A DNA stretch of 64,000 nucleotides. It comes from an uncultured Leptolyngbyaceae cyanobacterium (GTDB taxonomy: Bacteria; Cyanobacteriota; Cyanobacteriia; Leptolyngbyales; Leptolyngbyaceae). A model generated the notes under the pieces. It had not been told where the DNA came from, made no database searches, and saw only the letters and a list, made by a program, of their open reading frames with translations. The stretch spans positions 124,001-188,000 of the forward strand of contig CALIDI010000026.1 of NCBI GenBank assembly GCA_938023035.1. The letters run 5' to 3'. The position numbers were made by a program, and so were the translations under genes. Position 1 is the first letter of the stretch, and every line of letters starts with the position of its first letter. Of the stretch, positions 27,666-44,241 are shown in pieces.

Positions 27666-27983
27666 TACCCCTCCAGATCGGCGACTCCGTAGCAAATAGG
27701 TTGTGCGACATCATTTTTATAACCATGGTCATTCTATCGGTGTTCACAACCTCTCTATTCAGGAAGTTCACAAAAGTTAAAGTTCTTAAAATCCTTCTGG
27801 AGAAAGGTTTACTGAGCTTGCCCTCAGGTTCACATTGCTAGCCCTTGGCGCAGCCCATCCGCAGAATAGACAAACATAGACAAACTGAGAGGTGAACCAG
27901 AGTTTGCCCTGGGTTGCTTTTTGCATCGCTGTATAATGAGCCTCTTGGGTAATGGAATTAGCTCAACCCGCAAAGGAGAGGAC
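27666..27983. other. Divergent promoter region of psb30 and cobN
   Basis: 318 bases between divergent genes. A TATAAT at 27932-27937 lies 46 bases before the cobN start, but I find no well-spaced -35 box. I see no cobalamin riboswitch here, in contrast to the loci at 33.8 and 38.3 kb. Confidence 0.45.
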
Positions 27984-30900
27984 ATGCATCGATTGGCCGC
28001 AACTCCAGGGGGATGGACTCCCAATACTGACGGAGTCATCTTTGTTGAGCAGACCCCCGCCCCAATCGTAGTGATAACGGCGGCAGATACTGACATTAGC
28101 GCAATCGCCCAGGCAGCCAACTCCTTGCCCGATCACTTTCCAGCGCTGCGGGTGGTTAATTTACTGCAACTGCAACAACAGCTCTCCATCGATACCTATG
28201 CCGAAACAGTGCTAGCGCAGGCTCAGGTCATTGTGCTGCGGCTGCTGGGGGGGCGGGCTTACTGGGCCTATGGCTTAGAAGTTGTGCGTGAGACGATAGA
28301 GCGCACGGGTGCCACCCTGGTGGTGCTACCAGGAGATAATCAGCCCGACCCGACCCTAAGCAGTCATTCCACTCTGGCGATTGCTGAAGTCAATCAGCTC
28401 TGGCGCTACTTTATCGAGGGAGGGGTAGACAACATGGTCAATGCCCTCAAGTGGCTGGCTCACCATGGGCTGGCTCAGCCGTTTGATTATGCCCCTCCCC
28501 AACCTGTCCCAGCGGTTGGGCTGTATACATGCCCCGGAATTTCCGTACCCCCAGCGGCTCCCCACGTCGGGATTGTGTTTTATCGGGCGCATTATCTGGC
28601 CAGTAATCTCGCCCCCATCGATGCCCTGTGTCGCGCTTTGGGCGATCGCGGTCTGGCTCCCGTTGCTCTGTTTGTTTCCTCCCTGCGGGATGCTGACGTC
28701 CAGGCTGAGCTGGTGCATTATTTTCGACCAAAGGGTGAAGCAGGCATTCAGGTGTTGCTGAATACCACCAGTTTCTCTTTAGGGCAACCGCTGACGCTAG
28801 GTCGATTTGCTCCAGAAGATGATCTCCCCGCTGAACTCTGGCAGCAATTGGATGTACCCGTGTTGCAGGTGATCTTGAGTGGAGGTGGTTTTACCCAGTG
28901 GCAGCAGGAGTGGCGGGGTCTTTCTCCCCGCGATGTGGCGATGAATGTAGCCCTGCCGGAGGTTGATGGGCGCATTATCAGCCGGGCTGTTTCCTTTAAG
29001 GGGGTGCAAGGCTGGAATGCGGCTTTGGAAACGGAGGTGTTGAACTATCAACCCCTGGGCGATCGCATTCAGTTTGTTGCTGACTTGGCTGCAAACTGGG
29101 TACACCTGCGGCAAACTCCTGTTAACCAGCGCAAAGTGGCTCTGGTTTTAGCCAACTATCCCACCCGTAATGGTCGTCTTGCCAATGGGGTAGGGCTGGA
29201 TACCCCTGCTAGTTGTGTGGCGATTTTGCACGCACTCCAACAGGCTGGATATACCGTCACTGATCCTCCGGAGACAGTTGACGAGTTGATCCGGCAATTA
29301 ACCGCAGGCGTAACAAATGATCCCGAAACAGTGGGAATCAACTTGGCTCACCAGACCTTACCGTTGAAAGCCTATCAAACCTGGTTTGAGACACTTCCAG
29401 AGAAAATTCAAATGCAGGTGAAAGACCGTTGGGGAGAAGCCCAAACCACTTTCACGATCGCCGGAGTACAGTTTGGCCATGTTTTTGTGGGGATTCAACC
29501 GGCACGGGGCTATGATGTCGATCCAGCGCTGAACTACCATGCCCCCGATTTAGAACCGACCCACGACTATCTGGCCTTTTACCATTGGCTGCGGGCCGAG
29601 TTTGGCACTCAAGCAATCGTGCATGTGGGCAAACATGGCAACTTAGAATGGTTACCAGGTAAGAGTCTGGCTCTTTCCCAGGAGTGTTACCCCGAAATTG
29701 CCCTCGGCCCGCTGCCCCATTTGTATCCCTTTATTGTGAACGATCCGGGGGAGGGTTCCCAGGCGAAGCGGCGATCGCAGGCGGTAATTATCGACCACCT
29801 CACCCCGCCCATGACCCGTGCCGAACTCTATGGTGGGTTACAGCAGCTTGAAGGCTTAATTGATGAATACTACGAAGCTCAAACCCTTGATCCATCTCGG
29901 CTATCGGTGATTTGCGATCAGATCACGGCCCTGATTCAACAAACGAATCTGAGCCAAGAACTGCAAGCCCTGACCGGAGTGATTGACCTGGAGCAACTAA
30001 CGGCTGCAGATCTAACGCGTCTGATTACTGACGCTGATCGCTACCTTTGTGAACTGAAAGAATCTCAAATTCGAGATGGTCTCCACATCTTTGGGTATTG
30101 CCCTGTAGGCCAGCAACTGCGCGATCTGATTATCGCCATTGCCCGCCATCCTGCCCGGGGACGCTTGGGCTTAACCCGAGCGATCGCCCAAGCCTGGGGG
30201 TTAGAATTTGACCCCCTTACCGCTGACCCCGGCCAGTTAGCGAATTTAAGCGAGGAAACGGCGACCCGATTAAGCCAGCAAGCTCTGGTTGTTACCCCCT
30301 TTCACACCCTCGGAGACCTAACGGATCAAATTGAAACCTACGCTGCAACCCTCATTGATCAGTTATTGCTGGGCAACCTGGATCACCCTGTTGATGCTGC
30401 CCTTCAAGCCGAACTGGATTGGATCCGCGATCGCCTCTGGCCCAATTTACAAAAAACTACCCAAGAGATGGATTTCCTTCTCCATGGTCTAGCGGGAGGC
30501 TATGTTCCGGCTGCGCCTGCCGGTGCACCAACGCGGGGACGGCCCGAAGTGCTACCCACCGGGCGAAATTTTTACTCGGTGGATATCCGCGCGGTGCCAA
30601 CAGAAAGCGCCTGGGATGTCGGGCGTAAGGCGGCAGAAATCCTGATTGAAACCTACACTCAGGAACATGGCGAATATCCCCAAACGCTGGCACTGTCGAT
30701 TTGGGGGACTTCTACCATGCGGACGGGTGGGGATGATTTGGCCGAAGCCCTCGCTCTGCTAGGGGTGCGACCCGTGTGGGAAGGCACTTCACGGCGGGTG
30801 ATTGATTTTGAGATTCTGCCGCTATCGCTGTTAGGGCGTCCCCGTGTGGATGTGACCCTGCGAATTTCTGGATTTTTTCGCGATGCCTTCCCTAATTTGA

Positions 30901-31796
30901 TTGATTTATTTGACCAGGCGGTAACGGCTGTAGCTGCCCTGGACGAACCACCGGAGGAAAACCCCCTAGCAGCCCAGGTACAGAAAGAAACCCAGGAATG
31001 GCAGCAGGCTGGCTTGCCCCTAGAGCAGGCGCAGCGACGATCGTGCCATCGAGTGTTTGGCTCTAAGCCGGGTGCCTACGGTGCCGGCTTACAGGGTTTG
31101 CTCGAATCGCAAACCTGGGAAACCTCAGACGACCTAGCCCGCGCTTACCTCAACTGGAGCAGTTACGCCTACACCGGAAAGGGAAACGGCTACTCGGAGC
31201 CAGAAGCATTTGAGCGTCGCCTTAAGCATCTGCAAATTGTGCTGCAAAATCAGGATAATCGCGAACATGATTTGCTTGATTCCGATGACTATTACCAGTT
31301 TCAGGGGGGGTTAACAGCCGCAGTCCGTTCTCTTCAGGGCAAAAATCCGACCATTTACTTTGGCGACCATGCCCTACCCGAAAACCCCAAAGTGCGATCG
31401 CTGCGTCAGGAGATTGCCCGTGTTTACCGCTCTCGAGTGGTCAACCCTAAGTGGATTGCAGGAGCCATGCGCCATGGCTACAAAGGTGCCTTTGAAATGG
31501 CAGCCACGATTGACTATTTGTTTGCCTATGATGCGACAACCCAATGTGTCGCTGACTATATGTACGAGGGTGTCGCTGCGGCCTATTTGCTTGACCCCCT
31601 AGTGCAGGCCTTCATTCGCCAAAAGAATCCCTGGGCACTGCGTGACATGGCTGAACGCCTTCTGGAAGCTCACCAGCGCCGCCTGTGGCAAAGCGCTCAC
31701 CCTACCCTGCTAGAACAGTTGCGATCGCTCTCGTTAGAGGCCGAAGCAGATATTGAGGGCCGACTGGGATGCCATCCTTCTCTGCCACCGCGATAG
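27984..31796 (+). CDS. cobN: Cobaltochelatase subunit CobN
   Basis: A 1270-residue member of the CobN/magnesium-chelatase H family, the large metal- and macrocycle-binding subunit that inserts cobalt into hydrogenobyrinic acid a,c-diamide in aerobic-type B12 synthesis. Diagnostic segments are VALVLANYPTRNGRLANGVG, HVGKHGNLEWLPGKSLALS, NDPGEGSQAKRRSQAVIIDH, SIWGTSTMRTGGDDLAEAL and WIAGAMRHGYKGAFEMAATI. I chose ATG 27984 because AAGGAGAGGAC sits directly upstream; the open frame extends a little further without a ribosome site. CobN is preferred over ChlH from the sequence of the central and C-terminal motifs. No cobS or cobT gene is nearby; cyanobacteria often recruit ChlI/ChlD-like partners. 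Confidence 0.93.
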   Translation: MHRLAATPGGWTPNTDGVIFVEQTPAPIVVITAADTDISAIAQAANSLPDHFPALRVVNLLQLQQQLSIDTYAETVLAQAQVIVLRLLGGRAYWAYGLEVVRETIERTGATLVVLPGDNQPDPTLSSHSTLAIAEVNQLWRYFIEGGVDNMVNALKWLAHHGLAQPFDYAPPQPVPAVGLYTCPGISVPPAAPHVGIVFYRAHYLASNLAPIDALCRALGDRGLAPVALFVSSLRDADVQAELVHYFRPKGEAGIQVLLNTTSFSLGQPLTLGRFAPEDDLPAELWQQLDVPVLQVILSGGGFTQWQQEWRGLSPRDVAMNVALPEVDGRIISRAVSFKGVQGWNAALETEVLNYQPLGDRIQFVADLAANWVHLRQTPVNQRKVALVLANYPTRNGRLANGVGLDTPASCVAILHALQQAGYTVTDPPETVDELIRQLTAGVTNDPETVGINLAHQTLPLKAYQTWFETLPEKIQMQVKDRWGEAQTTFTIAGVQFGHVFVGIQPARGYDVDPALNYHAPDLEPTHDYLAFYHWLRAEFGTQAIVHVGKHGNLEWLPGKSLALSQECYPEIALGPLPHLYPFIVNDPGEGSQAKRRSQAVIIDHLTPPMTRAELYGGLQQLEGLIDEYYEAQTLDPSRLSVICDQITALIQQTNLSQELQALTGVIDLEQLTAADLTRLITDADRYLCELKESQIRDGLHIFGYCPVGQQLRDLIIAIARHPARGRLGLTRAIAQAWGLEFDPLTADPGQLANLSEETATRLSQQALVVTPFHTLGDLTDQIETYAATLIDQLLLGNLDHPVDAALQAELDWIRDRLWPNLQKTTQEMDFLLHGLAGGYVPAAPAGAPTRGRPEVLPTGRNFYSVDIRAVPTESAWDVGRKAAEILIETYTQEHGEYPQTLALSIWGTSTMRTGGDDLAEALALLGVRPVWEGTSRRVIDFEILPLSLLGRPRVDVTLRISGFFRDAFPNLIDLFDQAVTAVAALDEPPEENPLAAQVQKETQEWQQAGLPLEQAQRRSCHRVFGSKPGAYGAGLQGLLESQTWETSDDLARAYLNWSSYAYTGKGNGYSEPEAFERRLKHLQIVLQNQDNREHDLLDSDDYYQFQGGLTAAVRSLQGKNPTIYFGDHALPENPKVRSLRQEIARVYRSRVVNPKWIAGAMRHGYKGAFEMAATIDYLFAYDATTQCVADYMYEGVAAAYLLDPLVQAFIRQKNPWALRDMAERLLEAHQRRLWQSAHPTLLEQLRSLSLEAEADIEGRLGCHPSLPPR

Positions 31797-33416: not shown

Positions 33417-33765
33417 TCCCCTTACCACCACTTTTCTGTCTTTTGCTCCAGGTTCACACACTGACTGGATTTCCATGCTTAGACCGCATTATCCCCCAAT
33501 GTGAAGCAGAAAGGGACAGCCAAAGCGATGGAGGTCTTGAGCCAATCTCTTGAGTCAACTCTGCTGGTTTCACCTAACCGCCTTTGCCCCTCCATTGTGG
33601 GTTTGGCAATACATCGATCGGCTAAGGCGATCGCCCTTATCCTCATCTCCCATCCAATTCCCTGTTTCTAGACCTGACACAACACCCGACAAAAAAGACT
33701 TTACATAACTTCAACCACCCTCTATGTTTGATCCAATCCGAGCATGTTATGCTTATGCACACTAT
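33417..33765. other. Intergenic region before the first cobalamin riboswitch
   Basis: 349 bases between the divergent DUF4336 gene and the riboswitch. I see no ORF that looks like a protein; the promoter driving the riboswitch transcript should lie in the last 100 bases or so. Confidence 0.4.
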
Positions 33766-34076: not shown

Positions 34077-34685
34077 CGTCCTCATTGTAATTGCCATTTG
34101 TAGAAAATCAGGAATATCTGGGCATTGGCTAGTTGAGGTCACAGATTGCAAGGTGACTGCAGCTGTGGTTGCTTGAGGATTGTTGAATCTTGCAAATGTG
34201 TTTAGCCGTAAGGTAGAACGCGAACCCCAACGAGGTTCTATCTGCATGCTTCTGTGAACTGATGAGTTGTATCCGACAAGATATACTCGTCTATTGCCCA
34301 AAAATTGCTGGCTACAACGACGCAAACAGCCTTTTACCGGGCTGAGTCTTTTGTGATGTGAACCCCAACAGGCGAATAACTTTTGGCAAACGGTGCCAGT
34401 TGAGCCTTGTGTTACCTTTGGTCACTTCACCTAGCTAGTTCATAGCAGAGATGAAGCGGATCTTAATGACTATTTTTAGAATGCTATAGCGATGACGCTT
34501 CAAACCAGTACTCAATCAGGTTTGCAATCTGCAATTCTGGGCTATCTCCATATTGGTAGCGATCAAGAAGTGCAAAGGGCTTCCAGCATCTGCTACATCA
34601 GCAGATCTGACATAGGGATATTACTGCAAATCTTATGCTCTAGAGAGCACTGCGCAGCCAGGAAAGATGCTGCGGGAGGAAGTTA
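34077..34685. other. Region between riboswitch 1 and the tandem paralogues
   Basis: About 600 bases with no confident gene. A 64-codon ORF (34492-34686, MTLQTSTQSGLQSAILGYLH...) ends in TAA that shares one base with the ATG of the next gene (TAATG), which would allow coupling. It has no Shine-Dalgarno and no recognisable family, so I do not call it. The distance between riboswitch and first solid gene suggests that a gene was lost here or that the leader is unusually long. Confidence 0.4.
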
Positions 34686-35144
34686 ATGCACCTAAAAAAT
34701 GATGTGTGGCAGAGCTGCTTTGGCTACTGGCAGAACTCTTTCATGCAGCAGAACCTGCTTCTGCTCGGATACACAGCCTGGAATGGTTATCTCAATCATG
34801 GACGGGGGGTGCTGATCTGCGAAATAACGGATAGGGTTCCGGCTGAGATCGATTGGCAGGTTGAACGGGTTGAGTTTACTCAGCAATTCCTGCCATTGGA
34901 TCGGATGGCATCCTATTTGCAGAAATCTGAATTGGCTCCAGGGGCGATCGCCCCTCTGATACAAGCCATTACGACCTACAATCCAACCCGTGAAATCGTC
35001 ATCCTGATTTGGGACAGTGGCACTGTTGATATCAACTTGTTGCGACTAACGATCACGCCACCCAACTGCTATGAACAGGTACAGCGACGTTGGGTAGAGT
35101 TTCAGCCAGACTGCTTACAGCCACCCGGAAGATTTTATGTCTGA
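34686..35144 (+). CDS. Tandem paralogue A, unknown function (B12/metal locus)
   Basis: A 152-residue soluble protein with no signal peptide or membrane helix; GGGAGGA lies 6 bases before the ATG. It is clearly homologous to the next gene: both share LGY-AW--YL--GRG--IC near residue 30-45, a central A---YNP---IV-L block and a C-terminal ITPP-CYEQV---W-EFQ block. I do not recognise the family. It sits between a cobalamin riboswitch and DUF1636-cobW, in the same direction, and overlaps the next start by 8 bases, so it is very likely co-translated with paralogue B. A role in corrinoid or metal handling is inferred only from position. The shared Cys residues (IC, CYE) are candidate ligands. Confidence 0.75.
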   Translation: MHLKNDVWQSCFGYWQNSFMQQNLLLLGYTAWNGYLNHGRGVLICEITDRVPAEIDWQVERVEFTQQFLPLDRMASYLQKSELAPGAIAPLIQAITTYNPTREIVILIWDSGTVDINLLRLTITPPNCYEQVQRRWVEFQPDCLQPPGRFYV

Positions 35145-35616
35145 ACCACTTGGAGCGACACATCAACCCGACGAGTTACCAATGGATTGGCAGCAAGATT
35201 TGATTGCGACCAATCTGCTAGCGCTTGGCTATAACGCCTGGGCAGAATACCTCGATGGTGGGCGGGGTGCGGTTATTTGCAGTACCAACACGCCAATAGT
35301 AGACATCGCAGGAGAGGGGTTTAAGGCCTATTTTGTGCCGCGATCGCGTCTGGCAGCTTTTTTGAATGCCTGGCTAGCGGCTCCCGATACGGTGATTTTG
35401 CGTCACCACTTCATGAATGCACACATTCTAGAAGCTGTAGATACCTATAATCCTGATACAGACATCGTGTTCCTTCTGGAGTCATTTGATCAGATGACAT
35501 TCTTTTACTTAAAAAGTCTCCCGATCACACCACCTCAATGCTATGAGCAGGTCTGCAAAAGTTGGGAAGAGTTTCAGTCTGCGGTCTGCTTGCTACCGGA
35601 ACTAAGTCGAGAGTAA
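35137..35616 (+). CDS. Tandem paralogue B, unknown function (B12/metal locus)
   Basis: A 159-residue soluble protein homologous to the preceding gene product. Its N-terminus is extended (MSEPLGATHQPDELPMDWQQ) before the shared NLLALGYNAWAEYLDGGRG block; the middle has AVDTYNPDTDIVFLLESFDQ and the end LPITPPQCYEQVCKSWEEFQ. It overlaps paralogue A by 8 bases. Its predicted character is acidic and globular, with alternating hydrophobic strands. Retention of both copies side by side suggests a heterodimer or functional split. Nothing here resembles known cobalamin enzymes or transporters. Downstream, 300 bases precede the DUF1636 gene. Confidence 0.75.
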   Translation: MSEPLGATHQPDELPMDWQQDLIATNLLALGYNAWAEYLDGGRGAVICSTNTPIVDIAGEGFKAYFVPRSRLAAFLNAWLAAPDTVILRHHFMNAHILEAVDTYNPDTDIVFLLESFDQMTFFYLKSLPITPPQCYEQVCKSWEEFQSAVCLLPELSRE

Positions 35617-35922
35617 GTTCAGTTGTCAATGTTCCCGTTCATTGAAATCCTTTAGTAGAGATGATCAAGTGCTCAAATATTACTTGTATGGTGCTGGAAA
35701 GATTTCGACCGCGGTTCATCCGTTTGTTAAGCAGGAAGTACAGCATCGATCTCAGCCCTGCTGTCTGCATCGATTGCGGTTAATCCAACTAATGGCGTGG
35801 CTGTTTAATCCCATCAGGTTGCTACTTTGGGAGGTTTTGGGCAGGCAGAGTGAGTGGCCCAATGCCAGCCCCAAAACCAATGACCCATCAAAGCACTTCC
35901 GTTTAGAAAGCAAGAGCAGAAT
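35617..35922. other. Gap between paralogue B and the DUF1636 gene
   Basis: 306 bases. A 94-codon frame crosses it, but it starts with TTG, has no ribosome site, and overlaps the DUF1636 start; I see nothing protein-like in it. No hairpin or riboswitch motif noticed. Confidence 0.4.
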
Positions 35923-36306
35923 ATGACACAGGAGACATTATTTGTTTGTACGCTCTGTCGGTTTTCCCAACCAGAACAAGCACAGGAGGAACTGAGCAGT
36001 GGACAGTTGCTCTTCAATCAGCTTCAAGCGCAGTTAGAAATCTTGGAAGACGTTGACCCAATCCATCTCCAACCAGTTCGCTGTATGGGTGCTTGCGATC
36101 GCGCTTGTGTAGTGGCGTTTACGGCCCCTCACAAACTTACCTTTATCTTAAGTCAACTCTCCCCGACCGATGCTGTCCCCGATTTGTTGGCATTTAGCCA
36201 GCAATATACCGCTTGCTTAGATGGCAAAGTGTCCTACAAAGAGCGCCCCACAACCATCAAGCAAAAGATTCATGCGGTTTTACCACCTTTACCAACTAAC
36301 CTTTAA
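35923..36306 (+). CDS. DUF1636 thioredoxin-like Fe-S/metal-binding protein
   Basis: A 127-residue protein of the DUF1636 family, a thioredoxin-fold group often encoded beside cobW. Five cysteines occur in two sets: CTLC (9, 12) and CMGACDRAC (54, 58, 62), fitting a 2Fe-2S cluster or a zinc/cobalt site as in thioredoxin-like ferredoxins. Cytosolic, no signal peptide. It lies 16 bases before cobW and is surely in the same transcript. A role in delivering metal or electrons during corrinoid metabolism is an inference from this recurring gene pair. Confidence 0.85.
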   Translation: MTQETLFVCTLCRFSQPEQAQEELSSGQLLFNQLQAQLEILEDVDPIHLQPVRCMGACDRACVVAFTAPHKLTFILSQLSPTDAVPDLLAFSQQYTACLDGKVSYKERPTTIKQKIHAVLPPLPTNL

Positions 36307-36322: not shown

Positions 36323-37429
36323 ATGATGCATAAGATCCCTGTAACAGTTGTGACAGGCTTTTTAGGAGCCGGAAAAACGACGCTCGTGCGTCATTTATTA
36401 CAAAATAATCAAGGTCGCCGCGTTGCCGTGTTAGTGAATGAGTTTGGTGAAGTAGGCATTGATGGCGAGTTGTTGAAATCCTGTCGGGTTTGTGATGACG
36501 ATGAAGATCCAAATAACAATATTTTGGAACTGGCTAATGGCTGTCTGTGTTGCACCGTTCAGGAAGAATTTTTGCCGACCATGCAGGAGTTATTAAAAAG
36601 ACGCGATCGCCTTGACTGTATCTTAGTCGAAACTTCTGGACTAGCTTTGCCCAAGCCCCTAGTACAAGCCTTTCGTTGGCCCGAAATTCGCACCGGGGCA
36701 ACCGTGGATGGAGTGGTCACGGTTGTCGATTGTGAAGCCCTTGCTAATGGTCAATTTGTGAGTAATTTAGAGGCCCTGGAAGCCCAACGAAAAGCGGATG
36801 ATAGTCTAGACCATGAAACTCCAATTGAAGAGTTGTTTGAAGATCAATTAGCCTGTGCTGATCTGGTATTGCTCACTAAAGTCGATCGCGTTGATTTATA
36901 CACTCAAAACCAAGTGCAGAAGTGGTTGCGAAATAAGCTGCCAAATAATGTAAAAATCTTACCCTGTAAACAAGGAGACATTAGTCCTGATCTTTTGTTG
37001 GGCTTCAATGCTGCCGTTGAAGATAATCTGGATTCTCGCCCCAGTCATCATGATACAGAAGACGACCATGAACACGATGAAGACATTACTTCGGTTCATG
37101 TTGTGATAGACCAAGCATTTGAACCTGCGGAGTTGATCAGTCGCTTGCGATCGCTGGTGCAGCAACAAGAAATTTATCGCATTAAGGGCTTTGCCGCCGT
37201 GCCCAATAAGTCGATGCGATTGGTAGTGCAGGGAGTGGGCAATCGGTTTGATAGCTTTTACGACCGCCCCTGGCAACCCAATGAACCCCGCCAAACACGG
37301 TTGGTTTTAATTGGGCGATCTCTTCAGCAAACTCAAATTTCTGCCATGCTCTTGGAGAAAGCGAGGAATGATCTGGATTTTCACCCCAGAGACACGGAAA
37401 GCACGGAGAAACCGCATTGGATTGCTTGA
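36323..37429 (+). CDS. cobW: CobW, G3E-family GTPase of cobalamin/metal metabolism
   Basis: A 368-residue GTPase of the COG0523 family. P-loop GFLGAGKTT (12-20), metal-binding GCLCC (73-77) preceded by CRVCDDDED (54-62), switch residues in ETSGLALP, and the guanine motif LLTKVD (183-188) are all present, then a His/Asp-rich stretch at 241-254 and the CobW_C domain. These proteins act as metal chaperones; the extended Cys-Cys-Asp segment and genomic place favour cobalt for B12. AGGAGT lies just upstream of paired ATGs at 36323 and 36326. The last 16 residues (FHPRDTESTEKPHWIA) are encoded by a copy of the CACAGAGACAC-type repeat, extending the usual C-terminus. Confidence 0.93.
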   Translation: MMHKIPVTVVTGFLGAGKTTLVRHLLQNNQGRRVAVLVNEFGEVGIDGELLKSCRVCDDDEDPNNNILELANGCLCCTVQEEFLPTMQELLKRRDRLDCILVETSGLALPKPLVQAFRWPEIRTGATVDGVVTVVDCEALANGQFVSNLEALEAQRKADDSLDHETPIEELFEDQLACADLVLLTKVDRVDLYTQNQVQKWLRNKLPNNVKILPCKQGDISPDLLLGFNAAVEDNLDSRPSHHDTEDDHEHDEDITSVHVVIDQAFEPAELISRLRSLVQQQEIYRIKGFAAVPNKSMRLVVQGVGNRFDSFYDRPWQPNEPRQTRLVLIGRSLQQTQISAMLLEKARNDLDFHPRDTESTEKPHWIA

Positions 37430-38122: not shown

Positions 38123-38296
38123 AGTAAATCGCTAAGACAGTGAATCGCTAGGACATGAAGGAGATACCGTCATCTTAGCAACACTGACGCTGAACAACGC
38201 GACCGGAGCGTGATTTCCAGAACGGGGGGTGCCCTTCTTAAAGTTTTGTTGCTACTACCCATCGCCCATTTCAAACTATGCTCCAATGCTAGAAAT

Positions 38297-38445
38297 CGGT
38301 TCTAGTGGGAATCAGCCGCTAGACGTAAGGGGGAAAGTTCGGTGCAAATCCGGCGCTGTCCCGCAACTGTGATGAAACGTTGGTTTCTAAGTCAGGATGC
38401 CCACCGATGTTTGTTGACAGTTCACACCATCTGCGAGGTACGGAT
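38297..38445 (+). promoter_or_regulatory. Cobalamin riboswitch 2 with expression platform
   Basis: A compact class of the same element: GGGGGAAAGTTCGGTGCAAA, CCGGCGCTGTCCCGCAACTG and AAGTCAGGATGCCCACC (38389-38405). The final hairpin CATCTGCGAGGTACGGATGA puts GAGG in a loop, 5 bases before ATG 38444. The loop TGCGAGGTAC is partly complementary to GTCCCGCA in the core, as expected for the L5-L13 kissing interaction that hides the ribosome site when B12 is bound (inference). The transcript enters a cobW relic and then the TonB receptor gene, so the switch probably still governs uptake genes downstream. Confidence 0.93.
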
Positions 38446-38765: not shown

Positions 38766-38908
38766 GGCTTTGGTGAGGGCGTTCTCGGTTTTGCAGTTGA
38801 TGAATCCATGCTCTTGAGCGGCCTACGCCTGAGCTAGCTCAAGCCGTCTGCTAGTCAAATATCCCAGCCTGTGAGTCCGCGTGGGAAGCTAGTGTTGTTC
38901 AGTCAAAA

Positions 38909-38923
38909 TGAGAATGATTATTA
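38909..38923 (+). promoter_or_regulatory. Zur/Fur-type box before the TonB receptor gene
   Basis: TGAGAATGATTATTA matches 12 of 14 defined positions of the 7-1-7 palindrome TGATAAT-N-ATTATCA described for cyanobacterial Zur, a pattern that also resembles Fur boxes. It lies 37 bases before the ATG of the receptor gene, where bound repressor would block transcription. A similar box lies at 47859-47873. Confidence 0.6.
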
Positions 38924-38960
38924 TTTTCATGCTATGTCAATCTATGTGAGGAAAGTGAAC

Positions 38961-41141
38961 ATGCGTCGTCGGTATTCGGCTGTTGTCTTTGCATGGTTAG
39001 TAGCGGGAGGATTCAGCACCAGTCCGCTTGCGGTTCTAGCTGCACCTTCTGCGTCAGATTTTCTGCCCCTGGGGGAATCCGTCATCACTGCGCAAGAGCA
39101 AGGCAGCCCTGCCCCTGACCCCGATGCCACTCTACCTGCCCGGTCAGATGATTTGGATGAGGAAGAGGAAGAGCTGATCATTATTGAACGCATTCTGCGG
39201 CAGCCAGTTTCGACCCCAGGACGGGGGGATGCGACGTTACAAAATTCTACCCGCCCGACCTATGTGATCAATCGGGAAGAGATGGAACAGCGAGGAGCCA
39301 GAACCGTGCGGGAAGCCCTCCGGTTTCTGCCGGGTATTTTGGGCGATGGCACTGTGGGCAGTCAGGTCAATTCCCTCAGTGGGCAGTTTATTCGCGGGTC
39401 AAATACAGGGCAGGTCTTAATCTTGCTGGATGGTCGTCCGGTGAACAATCTGGGGAGTGGCGGTTTTGATTTGTCGGAGTTGACAACGGATGGCATTGAG
39501 CGGATCGAAGTGCTGCCGGGGGGTGGTTCAACTCTATACGGTTCGGATGCGATCGGAGGGATTATTAATATCATCACCCGTCGCGCCGGGCAGAAACCAT
39601 TTAATGCTCGTGTCAGCAGTAGTTTTGGCAGTTATGGCTATGATGATCAAACCTTGCAAGTTGATGGAACGGTTGACCCGGTGCGCTATTTCTTCAGCTA
39701 CAATCGCATCCAGGCTGAGTATAACTTCCCTTTTTCCATCCCTGAAGTTGGATTTCGCGGCACGCGGAGGAATGGCGATACCCTCTACAACAATTTGAAT
39801 GCCCGGTTGGAGTTTAAGTTGGGCGATCGCGCTACCCTCAGCTTCAACACTCTCTATTTGCCGAAGCAACAGGGGGTTCCTGGTGGCGTACCAATACCCT
39901 TTCCCGCCTTTGGGCAGGGCTTTTTCAACTCTCTCACGGATAACAATCGCAAGTATACGGATCAGGTCTTGAGTGATGTCACGTTGCAGGCGCAGTTGGG
40001 CGCAGGCACCGATTCTCTGCTTACGGCCAGACTGTATTTAGACTTTCTCAATACGCGCTTTGATAATCGCACCACTTTTGCCGATACCCTCTCGGTGGTG
40101 AGAGGTGTGCCAATCTTAAGGCGCACTGCTCAAACCCAGCAGCGGTTTCAAACCAAACAGCGATCGCTGGGCATTCAGGTGCAACATAACTGGAAACTGG
40201 CGGCCAATCAAACGCTGATCTATGGCTTTGACTATCGCAGTACAAATGTAGAAAATCTGACACAAAATCTGGTCACGGATGTGGCGCGGATTAACTACGA
40301 CGATCGCGTTAGCCAAGGTGCAGTGTTTGCCCAATACGCGATCGACATTGTGCCCCAATTCACCCTCACCGCAGGATTGCGCCAGGATTTAAGCAGTTTA
40401 AGGAATGGGTCAGCCCTGTCTCCCGCCGTAGGAGCCAAGCTGTTGTTAGGCGACTCTACCACCCTGCGTGCCAACTACATTCGCAACTTCCGCACACCGA
40501 CTTTAGCCAACCTGTTCAACGCCAATCCCACCAATATTGGCAACCCCGACCTCAAGCCAGAGCGGGGCAATAGTCTTGATGTTGGCATTGATCAAAAAAT
40601 TGGGGATTTTGCCCTGCTGCGCCTGACCTATTACAACAACACCATCTCCGATCTAATTGCCTTCAAACGCATCGCTCCCCCCGTCGATGGCATTTCTGGC
40701 ACCTGGCAAAATCTAGGCAAAGTCCGCAGTCAGGGACTGGAAGCAGCATTGAATGTGCAAATTGCTCCCAATGTTTATGCGCTGGTGGGCTATACCCTCA
40801 ATGATCCGAAAATTCTGGAAAGTGTGAACCCCAATGAAAAAGGACAAGAGTTACGCTTTGCCGGAGCCGATAAACTCAACCTGGGGTTGTGGTATGAAAA
40901 CCGCTTTGGCTGGTACGCTGGATTACTCATGAACTCGTTGGGCCGTTACCCAACCGATAACCGGAACACAGAGTTTCTCCCCGGTTACACCACCTTCGAT
41001 TTGCGCCTGCGCGTGCCTCTGACTCCCCAACTTACGGTCAACTTTGGGATTGAAAATATTTTCAATCAGCGCTATCAAGTGTTTCCCGGATTTCCAGATG
41101 CAGGACGAATTTTTCAGGGAGGGATTCGGTATGAATTTTAA
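38961..41141 (+). CDS. TonB-dependent outer membrane receptor (BtuB-like)
   Basis: A 726-residue outer membrane receptor. Signal peptide MRRRYSAVVFAWLVAGGFST; an acidic linker (DDLDEEEEELIIIERIL) where the TonB box should lie; plug domain (PTYVINREEMEQRGARTVRE, GQVLILLDGRPVNN, IERIEVLPGGGSTLYGSDAI, GGIINIITRR); then a beta barrel ending in the C-terminal aromatic GGIRYEF. ATG 38961 is chosen, with AGGAAAG 7 bases upstream; two upstream in-frame ATG/GTG options lack a signal peptide at their start. With the cobalamin riboswitch upstream and BtuF/BtuC-like genes downstream, corrinoid uptake is likely; the Zur/Fur-type box raises a metal-chelate alternative. Confidence 0.9.
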   Translation: MRRRYSAVVFAWLVAGGFSTSPLAVLAAPSASDFLPLGESVITAQEQGSPAPDPDATLPARSDDLDEEEEELIIIERILRQPVSTPGRGDATLQNSTRPTYVINREEMEQRGARTVREALRFLPGILGDGTVGSQVNSLSGQFIRGSNTGQVLILLDGRPVNNLGSGGFDLSELTTDGIERIEVLPGGGSTLYGSDAIGGIINIITRRAGQKPFNARVSSSFGSYGYDDQTLQVDGTVDPVRYFFSYNRIQAEYNFPFSIPEVGFRGTRRNGDTLYNNLNARLEFKLGDRATLSFNTLYLPKQQGVPGGVPIPFPAFGQGFFNSLTDNNRKYTDQVLSDVTLQAQLGAGTDSLLTARLYLDFLNTRFDNRTTFADTLSVVRGVPILRRTAQTQQRFQTKQRSLGIQVQHNWKLAANQTLIYGFDYRSTNVENLTQNLVTDVARINYDDRVSQGAVFAQYAIDIVPQFTLTAGLRQDLSSLRNGSALSPAVGAKLLLGDSTTLRANYIRNFRTPTLANLFNANPTNIGNPDLKPERGNSLDVGIDQKIGDFALLRLTYYNNTISDLIAFKRIAPPVDGISGTWQNLGKVRSQGLEAALNVQIAPNVYALVGYTLNDPKILESVNPNEKGQELRFAGADKLNLGLWYENRFGWYAGLLMNSLGRYPTDNRNTEFLPGYTTFDLRLRVPLTPQLTVNFGIENIFNQRYQVFPGFPDAGRIFQGGIRYEF

Positions 41142-41150
41142 GGAGAACCC

Positions 41151-42035
41151 ATGATGACTCTATTTGACCGTCAAGTTATACCTCTCCAGCGCACGCTTGA
41201 AGAACCCTTGCCCAATGGAGGGCGGATTGAGTATGAAGAGATTCCAGCCCATATCGATGTTCTTGGCCCGCTGTTGTATTCCCTGTTCCATGACCACTGG
41301 CAGGAAGTCGGTTTAGGGCATGTCGTCGATGGCAGTGTGTTGGAGTTGGAATTTACCCAGGCACCCAAAATTATCCGGTTGTATGATGGCTATCTCACGG
41401 TCGTTGCTCAGGGCTGGCACATGCATTTGTGCCTTGAGGAAAATCAGGGCGGCCCGAACGCAACAACCCCAGATGAACTGCGACGAAAACGATTAGTGAG
41501 TCGGGCAGCCCTTTATCGGCGGTTCAATCCCCGCGGACAGGCCCGCAGTTGGGGCATTCAGTTCTGGAATGGGGCGGGAGAGCGGATGATGAATGTGTTT
41601 TTACCAAATCCGTTTGTAGGTAAGAATGAGGATTTGTTGCCAGAGAACAAGCCCGATCGCAGCAAGCTCAAACTCTATGAGCAATTGCGTCACATTTATG
41701 TTCTAGGAAATGCCTTAATCCCTTATGAAACTAATCCGTTAAAACGTCCGTTCATTTCGGTGTGTCGCTCTAGTCGGTGCAATCCATCTTTGAACTGGCA
41801 GCCGATCTATGAAGCATTGCAAAGTGCAGTGGCTGAGGCTGAATTAGAGGTGGATGTGATCCATTCGGGGTGTCTGGAGGTATGTAAATTGGGGCCTGTT
41901 GTTTTTTATTCTGGGGATAAAACCTGGTATACCCGTGTCACACCTGAACTAGCTCAGGAGATTGTGCATGAGCATCTCTGTGAAGGTCACAAAATTAAGT
42001 CACATTTATATCCAGCCGTGAAAGAGTCGCGATGA
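41151..42035 (+). CDS. Two-domain protein with C-terminal thioredoxin-like 2Fe-2S ferredoxin
   Basis: A 294-residue cytosolic protein. Residues 200-285 form a thioredoxin-like (2Fe-2S) ferredoxin: ISVCRSSRCNPS (Cys205, 210) and SGCLEVCKLGPVVFY (Cys241, 245), ending EIVHEHLCEGHKIKSHLYP. The N-terminal 190 residues form a separate domain of unknown family, with EIPAHIDVLGPLLYSLFHDH, a GWHMHLCLEE strand and RSWGIQFWNGAGERMM. Placed between a TonB receptor and a periplasmic binding protein, and overlapping the latter by ATGA, it may reduce the imported corrinoid or metal chelate on arrival (inference). It is functionally reminiscent of the DUF1636 protein upstream, a second Cys-rich thioredoxin-fold protein in the locus. 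Confidence 0.8.
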   Translation: MMTLFDRQVIPLQRTLEEPLPNGGRIEYEEIPAHIDVLGPLLYSLFHDHWQEVGLGHVVDGSVLELEFTQAPKIIRLYDGYLTVVAQGWHMHLCLEENQGGPNATTPDELRRKRLVSRAALYRRFNPRGQARSWGIQFWNGAGERMMNVFLPNPFVGKNEDLLPENKPDRSKLKLYEQLRHIYVLGNALIPYETNPLKRPFISVCRSSRCNPSLNWQPIYEALQSAVAEAELEVDVIHSGCLEVCKLGPVVFYSGDKTWYTRVTPELAQEIVHEHLCEGHKIKSHLYPAVKESR

Positions 42036-43222
42036 AGCTATGGAGTTTTGGTTGGCTGATTTTTGGGAGTGCGATCGCCCTTTCTTCCTGTGCGATCGCG
42101 CCTCCTCGAGGGATCATTCGTTCTCATTCAGAGTGTGTCAAAGACTATCAGCCGGAGGTTGATTATTTTCCTCACAAGGTGCATGTTACAGATGCTCAGG
42201 GATTTACGGTTGACTACCATCAGCATTACAAAATTGTGTCGGTAAATCGTCCTTGGAAAGATGCCAAAACCCAGTTTCAATATGTCCTGGTACAATGTGG
42301 CACTCCCATTCCTAAAGGATTTCAGCCGGAGCAAATCGTGCAAATTCCGGTGCAATCAGTCGTTACACTATCCACGACGCACTTTGTGCCCTTGCAGCGG
42401 TTGGGCGTGCTTGATCGCCTGAAGGGGATCAGCAACTTCAAAGATGTGACGACCCCCGCGGTGAATGCAAAAATCAACCAGAAGCAACTGATAGAAGTGG
42501 GGAATGCTGGGGGGTTGAAACTAGAGAACATTTTGGAATTAGCACCCGACTTAGTCACGACCTATGGCACGGGCAACCCGCAAACGGATGCGCATCCAAA
42601 GTTGCTGGAGGCGGGGATTAAGGTTGCGATCGTGGCGGAATATATGGAATCAACTCCCTTGGGACGGGCCGAGTGGATCAAGTTTTTAGCCCTCTTCTTC
42701 AATCGGGAAGCGGAAGCAGAAAAGAGTTTTGCCGACATTCGCCAACGCTATCAGGCGATCGCGACTAAAACAAAGACCGTCCAACGCCGACCAACTGTGT
42801 TTTCTGGTTTCGATCGCAAAGGTACCTGGTATATGCCTGGGGGGGATAGTTATGTGGCAAAATTCCTGGCGGATGCTGGGGCAACGTACCTCTGGGCCGA
42901 CGATCGCAGTTCCGGCAGTTTGCAACTCACTTTTGAGCAGGTGTATGATCGCGCAGCCCAGGCGCAATATTGGATTGTTAACGCCCACAACGTGAAAACA
43001 CGCGCCGAATTATTAGCTGCTGACCCCCGCTACCGGGGCTTTGCGGCCCTGCAAGCCAATCATGTGTTTAGTCCCACCGCAAAGGTCAATGCTCAGGGTG
43101 GCAATGACTACTGGCAGAGTGGTGTCGCCAACCCCGACCTGATCCTGGCCGATCTGGTGAAAATTTTTCACCCGGAGTTGGTGCCTGACCATCAATTTGT
43201 TTACTATCGGCAACTTCCCTAA
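42032..43222 (+). CDS. BtuF/FecB-like ABC substrate-binding lipoprotein
   Basis: A 396-residue periplasmic lipoprotein (lipobox LSSC, Cys20) of the class III metal-chelate/B12 binding group. Recognisable blocks: YKIVSVNRPWKD, TTHFVPLQRLGVLDRLKGIS, KLENILELAPDLVTTYGTGN, GRAEWIKFLALFFNREAEAE and GGNDYWQSGVANPDLILADL. The N-terminal 80 residues, which carry CVKDYQPEVDYFPHKV, are longer than in E. coli BtuF. The stop TAA shares its last base with the ATG of the permease gene (TAATG). It receives cargo from the TonB receptor encoded upstream; corrinoid is the best guess from the riboswitch, iron or zinc chelate the alternative. Confidence 0.88.
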   Translation: MKLWSFGWLIFGSAIALSSCAIAPPRGIIRSHSECVKDYQPEVDYFPHKVHVTDAQGFTVDYHQHYKIVSVNRPWKDAKTQFQYVLVQCGTPIPKGFQPEQIVQIPVQSVVTLSTTHFVPLQRLGVLDRLKGISNFKDVTTPAVNAKINQKQLIEVGNAGGLKLENILELAPDLVTTYGTGNPQTDAHPKLLEAGIKVAIVAEYMESTPLGRAEWIKFLALFFNREAEAEKSFADIRQRYQAIATKTKTVQRRPTVFSGFDRKGTWYMPGGDSYVAKFLADAGATYLWADDRSSGSLQLTFEQVYDRAAQAQYWIVNAHNVKTRAELLAADPRYRGFAALQANHVFSPTAKVNAQGGNDYWQSGVANPDLILADLVKIFHPELVPDHQFVYYRQLP

Positions 43223-44241
43223 TGAAGTGGCAGCTTCCCCTACCTCGCACCGTCTGGCTCGGAGTTTTGCTGGCTGGAGTGGCGCTGATCTTTGCCCTCA
43301 GTCTGGCGATCGGCTCTGTCTCTATTCCCCTCTCCGATGTTCTAACGACGCTGCTGGGCGGTACCCCGTCCCGTCCTGGATGGGGCACGATTATCTGGCA
43401 ATTCCGTCTGCCCCGTGCGCTCACAGCCATGCTGGCAGGCTCGGCGCTGGCCGTCAGCGGCTTGCAACTGCAAACCTTGTTTCAAAATCCCCTGGCGGGG
43501 CCTTTTGTGCTGGGGATTAATTCTGGTGCCAGTTTAGGGGTGGCGATCGTTGTGCTGGCTTCGCAACAACTGGGACTGGTCTATGGCGATATGGGGATTG
43601 TTACCGCTGCCTGTATGGGGTCTGCCAGTGTAGCAATGTTGGTGATTGTCGTGGCTCGCCTGGTGCAGAACGCGATCGCGTTGCTGGTGGTGGGGTTGAT
43701 GTTTGGCTATGCCACAGGTGCGATCGTCAACATCCTGCTGCAACTTAGTTCTGCCCAACAAGTGCAACAGTTTGTAATCTGGACCTTTGGTAGTTTTGGC
43801 GGTGTCACCTGGGTGCAATTACCGCTACTGGCAATGGGGATTGGGATTGGCATCGCGACCGCCCTGATCAGCACGGCTGCCTTAAATGTGATGTTGCTGG
43901 GTGAAATGCAGGCTCAGTCTCTCGGCGTAAATTTGCAGCGGCTCCGGCTTTTGGTACTCCTCAGTTCCTCCCTTCTGGCAGGCATTGTGACAGCATTTTG
44001 CGGCCCCATTGCCTTTCTCGGCGTTGCCGTACCCCACCTGTGCCGGGGCATCCTGCACACCAGCGACCTCCGCTGGCTGCTCCCCAGTGTCATCCTGGCT
44101 GGTGCCGGGCTGGCATTAGTCGCTGATCTGCTGTCTCAAGTGCTGGTGCGATCGTCCGTGTTACCCCTAAACTCAGTCACCGCCCTGATTGGCACTCCCA
44201 TTCTGATCTGGGTGGTTATTCGTAGTCGCGCCAGGTATTAA
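43222..44241 (+). CDS. BtuC/FecCD-family ABC permease
   Basis: A 339-residue inner-membrane permease with about ten helices. FecCD hallmarks: IIWQFRLPRALTAMLAGSAL, AVSGLQLQTLFQNPLAGPFV, LGINSGASLGVAIVVL, and GPIAFLGVAVPHLCRGILH near the ATPase-contact loop, then a final helix ending WVVIRSRARY. It is fused by a one-base stop-start overlap to the binding-protein gene, so the pair is translated together. In most such operons the ATPase (BtuD/FecE) follows directly; here the next 550 bases hold no ATPase gene, so the motor must be supplied from elsewhere. Confidence 0.92.
   Translation: MKWQLPLPRTVWLGVLLAGVALIFALSLAIGSVSIPLSDVLTTLLGGTPSRPGWGTIIWQFRLPRALTAMLAGSALAVSGLQLQTLFQNPLAGPFVLGINSGASLGVAIVVLASQQLGLVYGDMGIVTAACMGSASVAMLVIVVARLVQNAIALLVVGLMFGYATGAIVNILLQLSSAQQVQQFVIWTFGSFGGVTWVQLPLLAMGIGIGIATALISTAALNVMLLGEMQAQSLGVNLQRLRLLVLLSSSLLAGIVTAFCGPIAFLGVAVPHLCRGILHTSDLRWLLPSVILAGAGLALVADLLSQVLVRSSVLPLNSVTALIGTPILIWVVIRSRARY

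Follow-up and report, generated by a model that had tools for sequence, protein, structure and literature searches.

CcmS (Slr1911; NCBIfam NF049993; PDB 9iur and 8zlh) is an assembly chaperone of the beta-carboxysome. It is built of five helices and four strands, forms a homodimer, and binds the last 12-15 residues of CcmK1 (PMC11635287). CcmS has so far been treated as a carboxysome chaperone. Two systems of cyanobacterial cobalamin regulation are described in passages of PMC10878165. For riboswitch-controlled metE operons, the riboswitch was put to the test in Synechococcus sp. PCC 7002 by Perez et al. (2016, cited in PMC10878165), and the alr4027-btuD cluster of Anabaena PCC 7120 is strongly induced by cobalt starvation. 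According to those passages, this cluster comprises a riboswitch, a metal-binding protein, BtuB, a ferredoxin-like protein and BtuFCD, and the passages on it mention no protein like those described here (PMC10878165). A 2009 survey recorded no riboswitch-regulated cobW in cyanobacteria (PMC2770081). In this study, we analysed two small proteins, A and B, encoded in a stretch of 64,000 nucleotides (the window), and found that their family represents a redeployment of the CcmS fold within the cobalamin regulon.

The genes for A (34686-35144, + strand, 152 aa) and B (35137-35616, + strand, 159 aa) both start with ATG and have 8 nt in common, which confirms the coordinates of the earlier note. BLASTP of A against B gave 54/142 identities (38%) and 86 bits with an E-value of 5e-27, a similarity far above chance, and the two are true paralogues. 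The three blocks seen in both proteins by the earlier note are genuine and all lie within conserved columns of the wider family. In A numbering, the conserved columns are W15, G28, W32, G34, G41, C45, Y98 and P100, followed by P125, C128, Q131, W136, E138 and F139. Both C45 and C128 are more than 90% conserved in the family, and only C128 has a counterpart in CcmS. The idea of a long-kept tandem pair was also borne out: in the tree, B forms a single clade with members in several cyanobacterial families (SH-aLRT 100), evolves more slowly and accompanies metE, and purifying selection acts on both genes, with NG86 dN/dS values of 0.16 for A and 0.12 for B between the window and a relative's locus (L083). 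The 4.75 Mb source genome holds no family member besides A and B. All named relatives with family loci are cyanobacteria. At one locus (L088:8001-8447), a single gene looks as if recombination had joined the front part of A to the back part of B, and is followed by a desaturase with the N-terminal tag of micro-protein C described below; this suggests that A and B are interchangeable enough to recombine. At another (L040:9658-10266, the same as the L102 locus), about 40 residues are inserted in frame into B after DWQQEF.

The earlier note regarded A and B as an unrecognised family. This stands in so far as no Pfam family matches, and searches of Pfam, PHROGs and PADLOC returned nothing above noise for A, B or micro-protein C. 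It does not stand with respect to CcmS, of which A and B are remote homologues. In NCBIfam, the CcmS profile NF049993 was a weak match for both proteins (E 0.03 and 0.02), at 14.1 bits for A and 14.7 bits for B, below the curated cut-off of 125 bits. The CcmS profile was matched by 42 of 66 family members, with a best E-value of 3.9e-6. When aligned to 12 true CcmS sequences by hhalign, the family gave E-values of 2.4e-6 (A-led alignment) and 6.8e-6 (B-led). These alignments pair ITPPxCYEQV of the family with PPxCFEQV of CcmS, giving a common C-terminal motif PPxC[FY]EQV, and set the invariant Pro of the family's YxP, after helix 4, against a conserved Pro of CcmS.

The predicted structures agree with this assignment. 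Single-chain AlphaFold2 models had pLDDT values of 82.8 for A and 78.9 for B, and the secondary-structure order of both, HHEEHHEEH, agrees with the published helices and strands of CcmS (PMC11635287). With Foldseek against the PDB, only the CcmS entries 9iur and 8zlh were found at E <0.001, for A and B separately; the E-values to 9iur were 3.0e-6 for A and 4.9e-6 for B. In VIA-align, A matched the CcmS chains with Z-scores of 9.7 and 9.6, against 3.3 for the best other chain. CcmS, which is also of the same size, is thus the only significant structural neighbour. Searching the PDB with the family profile gave CcmS chains only at E 0.8-0.9, and phmmer of B against the PDB returned nothing useful. 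A match to SnoaL (E 0.24) was treated as noise. Because the profile, profile-profile and structure comparisons all matched CcmS, the conclusion that A and B are remote CcmS homologues with the CcmS fold is well supported. The shared fold by itself shows no function.

A and B are not CcmS orthologues, because they score about 14 bits against the 125-bit cut-off, have no ccm gene among their labelled neighbours and belong to a family that coexists with true CcmS. The family and true CcmS are found together in several genomes, for example G055, G069, G260, G338 and G377. Unlike CcmS, A and B stand under a cobalamin riboswitch. Some of the residues by which CcmS works also differ. Its dimer-interface residues K104, Q107 and E111 (Nostoc 7120 numbering) correspond in hhalign to D115, L118 and T122 of A and are not conserved. 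D126 of CcmS, which contacts CcmK1, falls on a variable family position (V137 in A). Stretch 51-60 of CcmS, which contacts the CcmK1 tail (D51, Q53, F58, Y60), aligns poorly with the family; the other contact is E130. As the interface residues and D126 are not conserved, the dimer interface and ligand of A and B must differ from those of CcmS.

The earlier note took 34686-35616 as its unit. A and B are as it stated, but the larger unit runs from a riboswitch at 33749 to the end of cobW at 37429. It comprises, all on the + strand, the riboswitch, a metE remnant, A, B, micro-protein C, DUF1636 and cobW. Besides the 8-nt overlap of A and B, the C and DUF1636 genes overlap by 4 nt, and the gaps are 52 and 16 nt. 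The cobalamin riboswitch (RF00174; 33749..33960) is full-length (1-189) and scored 58.1 bits against a gathering score of 31.5. Just 5' of it, a consensus scan alone gave a weak promoter-like hexamer pair (33700..33728, + strand); such sites were fewer than in shuffled sequence and hence are not evidence of function. The DUF1636 protein (35923..36306) matched PF07845 at E 6.8e-33. The next gene (36323..37429) encodes a CobW G3E GTPase, likely a cobalt chaperone, with 504.7 bits for TIGR02475 against a cut-off of 332.1. Its cobW lies inside the operon, 3' of the B12 riboswitch, and cobN (27921-31796) lies about 3 kb upstream of the operon. In the window, a B12 riboswitch thus precedes a cyanobacterial cobW, an arrangement of which the 2009 survey had no case (PMC2770081).

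A second RF00174 riboswitch (38280..38422, + strand, 61.5 bits) heads a B12-uptake cluster on the same strand. This cluster encodes a BtuB-like TonB-dependent receptor (38871..41141; PF00593/PF07715; best NCBIfam profile TonB-B12, below its cut-off), a DUF7676 and 2Fe-2S ferredoxin-like protein (41151..42035; PF24724, E 3.8e-68), a BtuF-like periplasmic binding protein (42032..43222; PF01497, E 3.8e-34) and a BtuC/FecCD-type permease (43222..44241; PF01032, E 9.5e-73), for which the BtuC profile was best at 196.7 bits, below the cut-off of 334. It matches the alr4027-btuD cluster as given in the passages of PMC10878165. The 4.75 Mb genome has three RF00174 riboswitches above the cut-off and no more; the third heads a cbiMNQO cobalt transporter, whose genes were named by reading the sequences.

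The association of the family with the riboswitch extends to its relatives. RF00174 was found beside the family gene in 20/20 relatives' neighbourhoods. Of 80 loci collected solely through a protein profile, 76 contain it. The 80 loci were gathered with a profile of A-type members and scanned with a nucleotide profile derived from the first set of neighbourhoods; some are near relatives or repeat genomes of that set, and they are not 80 independent events. In three of the four loci without a riboswitch (L101, L107, L138), the gene is near a contig end, and the fourth (L122) is truly without one in 4.4 kb. A member could be called in 76 loci, and in 72 of these the riboswitch preceded it on the same strand, at a median distance of 800 nt and a minimum of 36 nt. 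Riboswitch control of the family is therefore well supported. From the established behaviour of this riboswitch, A and B would be expressed under B12 shortage. The cyanobacterial cobalamin regulon thereby gains protein families.

Among the neighbours of A and B, not every one of which was identified, are metE, DUF1636, cobW, btu genes such as btuB, SAM methyltransferases and fatty acid desaturases, and also an FAD monooxygenase, a Rieske protein and a DUF4346 pterin-binding protein. The methyltransferases are of three classes: one labelled MT2, one cyclopropane-synthase-like, and one MPBQ-methyltransferase-like (compare Sll0418).

Between B and DUF1636 lies the gene for micro-protein C (35669..35926, + strand, 85 aa, GTG start), whose stop overlaps the DUF1636 start codon. 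C begins with the N-terminal tag LKYYLYGAGKISTAVHPFVKQE, and the pattern of this tag in family operons is YLHRxGKIPTxVHPFVKQ. The profile match of C in its own genome had an E-value of 1.6e-20. The tag heads ORFs of 45-85 aa in many relatives, the stand-alone form having a basic C-terminal stretch. In five loci, the same tag is the N-terminus of a full fatty acid (membrane) desaturase. The view of C as a mere broken desaturase is weakened by the conserved stand-alone ORFs in many loci, and also by desaturases without the tag, which occur in the same operons. C was found at E <1e-5 in 21 of 368 genomes searched. The family was present in 21/21 of these, compared with 119/388 genomes overall. 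C does not always adjoin A and B, being on other contigs in G082 and G240, for example, and most family members occur without it.

We tentatively propose that A and B are ancient paralogues with the CcmS fold that are made when cobalamin is scarce and act as tail-binding assembly adaptors of the B12-shortage response. Scarcity of cobalamin would turn on the riboswitch-controlled operon, and A and B would be made. Like CcmS, they would be small dimers, either homodimers or facultative heterodimers, that attach to a short, extended tail on a client protein and help this client to assemble or reach its place. This dimeric adaptor or chaperone mechanism is suggested by the likeness to CcmS. Since CcmS works by binding a protein tail, and since the C tag is encoded in the same operons and is confident only in genomes with the family, this tag is the most attractive candidate for the client signal, by association only. 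B may also have served MetE, but neither A nor B depends on MetE. That a large family with this fold stands, with few exceptions, under cobalamin riboswitches suggests a second, unstudied job for the CcmS fold in B12 and methionine physiology, which the operon context narrows. A wider proposal, which we consider a long shot, is that, in cyanobacteria, the CcmS fold serves generally as an adaptor that reads protein tails. In the B12-shortage response, A and B would read the C tag on C and on desaturases and so bring B12-independent methyl-transfer and lipid/quinone enzymes together in an assembly associated with the membrane. If true, this would be an arm of the cobalamin regulon that has not been described before.

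The main rival explanation is that A and B work together with CobW and DUF1636 to handle cobalt or corrinoids, bringing cobalt to the CobN chelatase or guarding a corrinoid intermediate, perhaps through the two near-invariant cysteines. The window operon, with both DUF1636 and cobW and with cobN upstream, is consistent with such a role, as are the btuB and cbiMNQO genes under the genome's other two riboswitches and the high conservation of C45 and C128. Among the 80 loci, DUF1636 is present in 16 and CobW in 14. However, many members lie beside methyltransferases and desaturases without any cobalt gene. The C128 position is conserved in CcmS too, which has no known metal role, and apart from the two cysteines A and B contain no metal-binding motif. 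We regard a role in cobalt handling as rather unlikely.

MetE is the zinc-dependent, B12-free (cobalamin-independent) methionine synthase. In the window, both ends of metE are kept upstream of A, and the middle, about 2 kb, is gone. The N-terminal remnant (34492..34647, + strand, about residues 1-45) was found by tblastn at 43% identity; the E-value was 4e-7 when the local segment was searched and 2e-5 for the whole window. The C-terminal remnant (34637..34696, + strand, about residues 729-748; 50% over 20 aa, E 0.009) is collinear with the N-terminal piece and overlaps the start of A, an arrangement also seen for intact metE in relatives. We found no MetE anywhere in the window genome; the B12-dependent MetH is present. 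In the riboswitch-controlled metE operons of cyanobacteria, of which the one in PCC 7002 is described in passages of PMC10878165, the riboswitch is upstream of metE and A and B are next downstream. Unlike these operons, the window has lost metE and is left with A, B, C, DUF1636 and cobW. No description of A, B and C as extra genes of riboswitch-metE operons was found in the literature.

Scars of metE at the same site are also present in L034, L035, L040/L102, L044, L092 and L095. Since the end points differ among several of them, metE was probably lost more than once. In one of these (L044:9417-9731), an in-frame miniature metE of 104 aa with an internal deletion lies upstream of A, and B is a fragment. 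Between L095 and L102, which have a similar scar, dN/dS was 0.10 for A and 0.12 for B. These results indicate that A and B are under selection without MetE. The repeated deletion of metE that spares A and B is a natural knockout series separating their function from MetE.

B is nevertheless tied to metE where both exist. Of 388 cyanobacterial genomes, 39 have MetE, 31 have B and 20 have both, leaving 11 with B but not MetE, 19 with MetE but not B and 338 with neither (odds ratio 32, Fisher p 2e-15, in a test that ignores shared ancestry). In 20/20 genomes with both, which belong to 12 families, the two genes are on one strand within about 4 kb. A-only genomes showed no association with MetE (p 1.0). 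It could be argued from this tie that B, together with A, assists the assembly of MetE or regulates it. Four B-only loci (L190, L191, L192 and L039), which were read directly, have metE immediately upstream, and metE overlaps A in several operons. On the other hand, B is absent from about half of the MetE genomes, the A-only genomes lack the association, and A and B remain intact under purifying selection in the window and several relatives despite the same-site deletion of metE. Therefore, a helper role for metE alone was rejected, as A and B outlive metE, and a role of B, with A, as a MetE factor appears improbable.

The earlier note suggested that overlapping duplicates of this kind often form obligate heterodimers. 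This was not upheld by the gene counts: among the 388 genomes, with an A-type member defined by E <1e-30, 67 carry A but no B, and in 8 others B has no second family member beside it. The 8-nt A-B overlap in the window, with overlaps of 4, 8 and 17 nt in relatives, and the frequent translational coupling of the two genes would fit a heterodimer, and CcmS itself is a dimer (PMC11635287). However, the overlap is not universal, since the genes are separated in other relatives by gaps of about 80, 885 or more than 2000 nt. In Nostoc-type loci, other genes, including the MT2 methyltransferase, lie between A and B. The CcmS interface residues are not conserved in either protein. We consider an obligate A-B heterodimer very unlikely; because CcmS is dimeric and the genes are often translationally coupled, a facultative A-B dimer may still form.

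That A and B are carboxysome factors replacing CcmS when B12 is short is hardly credible: they share its fold, and neither the window genome nor the relatives listed from its family have a CcmS above the cut-off, but the labelled neighbourhoods showed no ccm gene, CcmS and A/B occur together in the five genomes named above, and the CcmK1-contacting D126 is not conserved. A carboxysome role of any kind was judged unlikely from gene context and this coexistence.

More distant members of the family were also seen. In two small-genome cyanobacteria (L181:5569-6024 and L183:5858-6313), a family member directly adjoins a fatty acid desaturase with no riboswitch immediately upstream, and the link between family and desaturase is repeated there. 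Proteins of about 156 aa with weak similarity (E near 1e-7) occur in several copies per genome and in unrelated contexts (L175-L179), and these sequences possibly represent a third branch of the CcmS fold.
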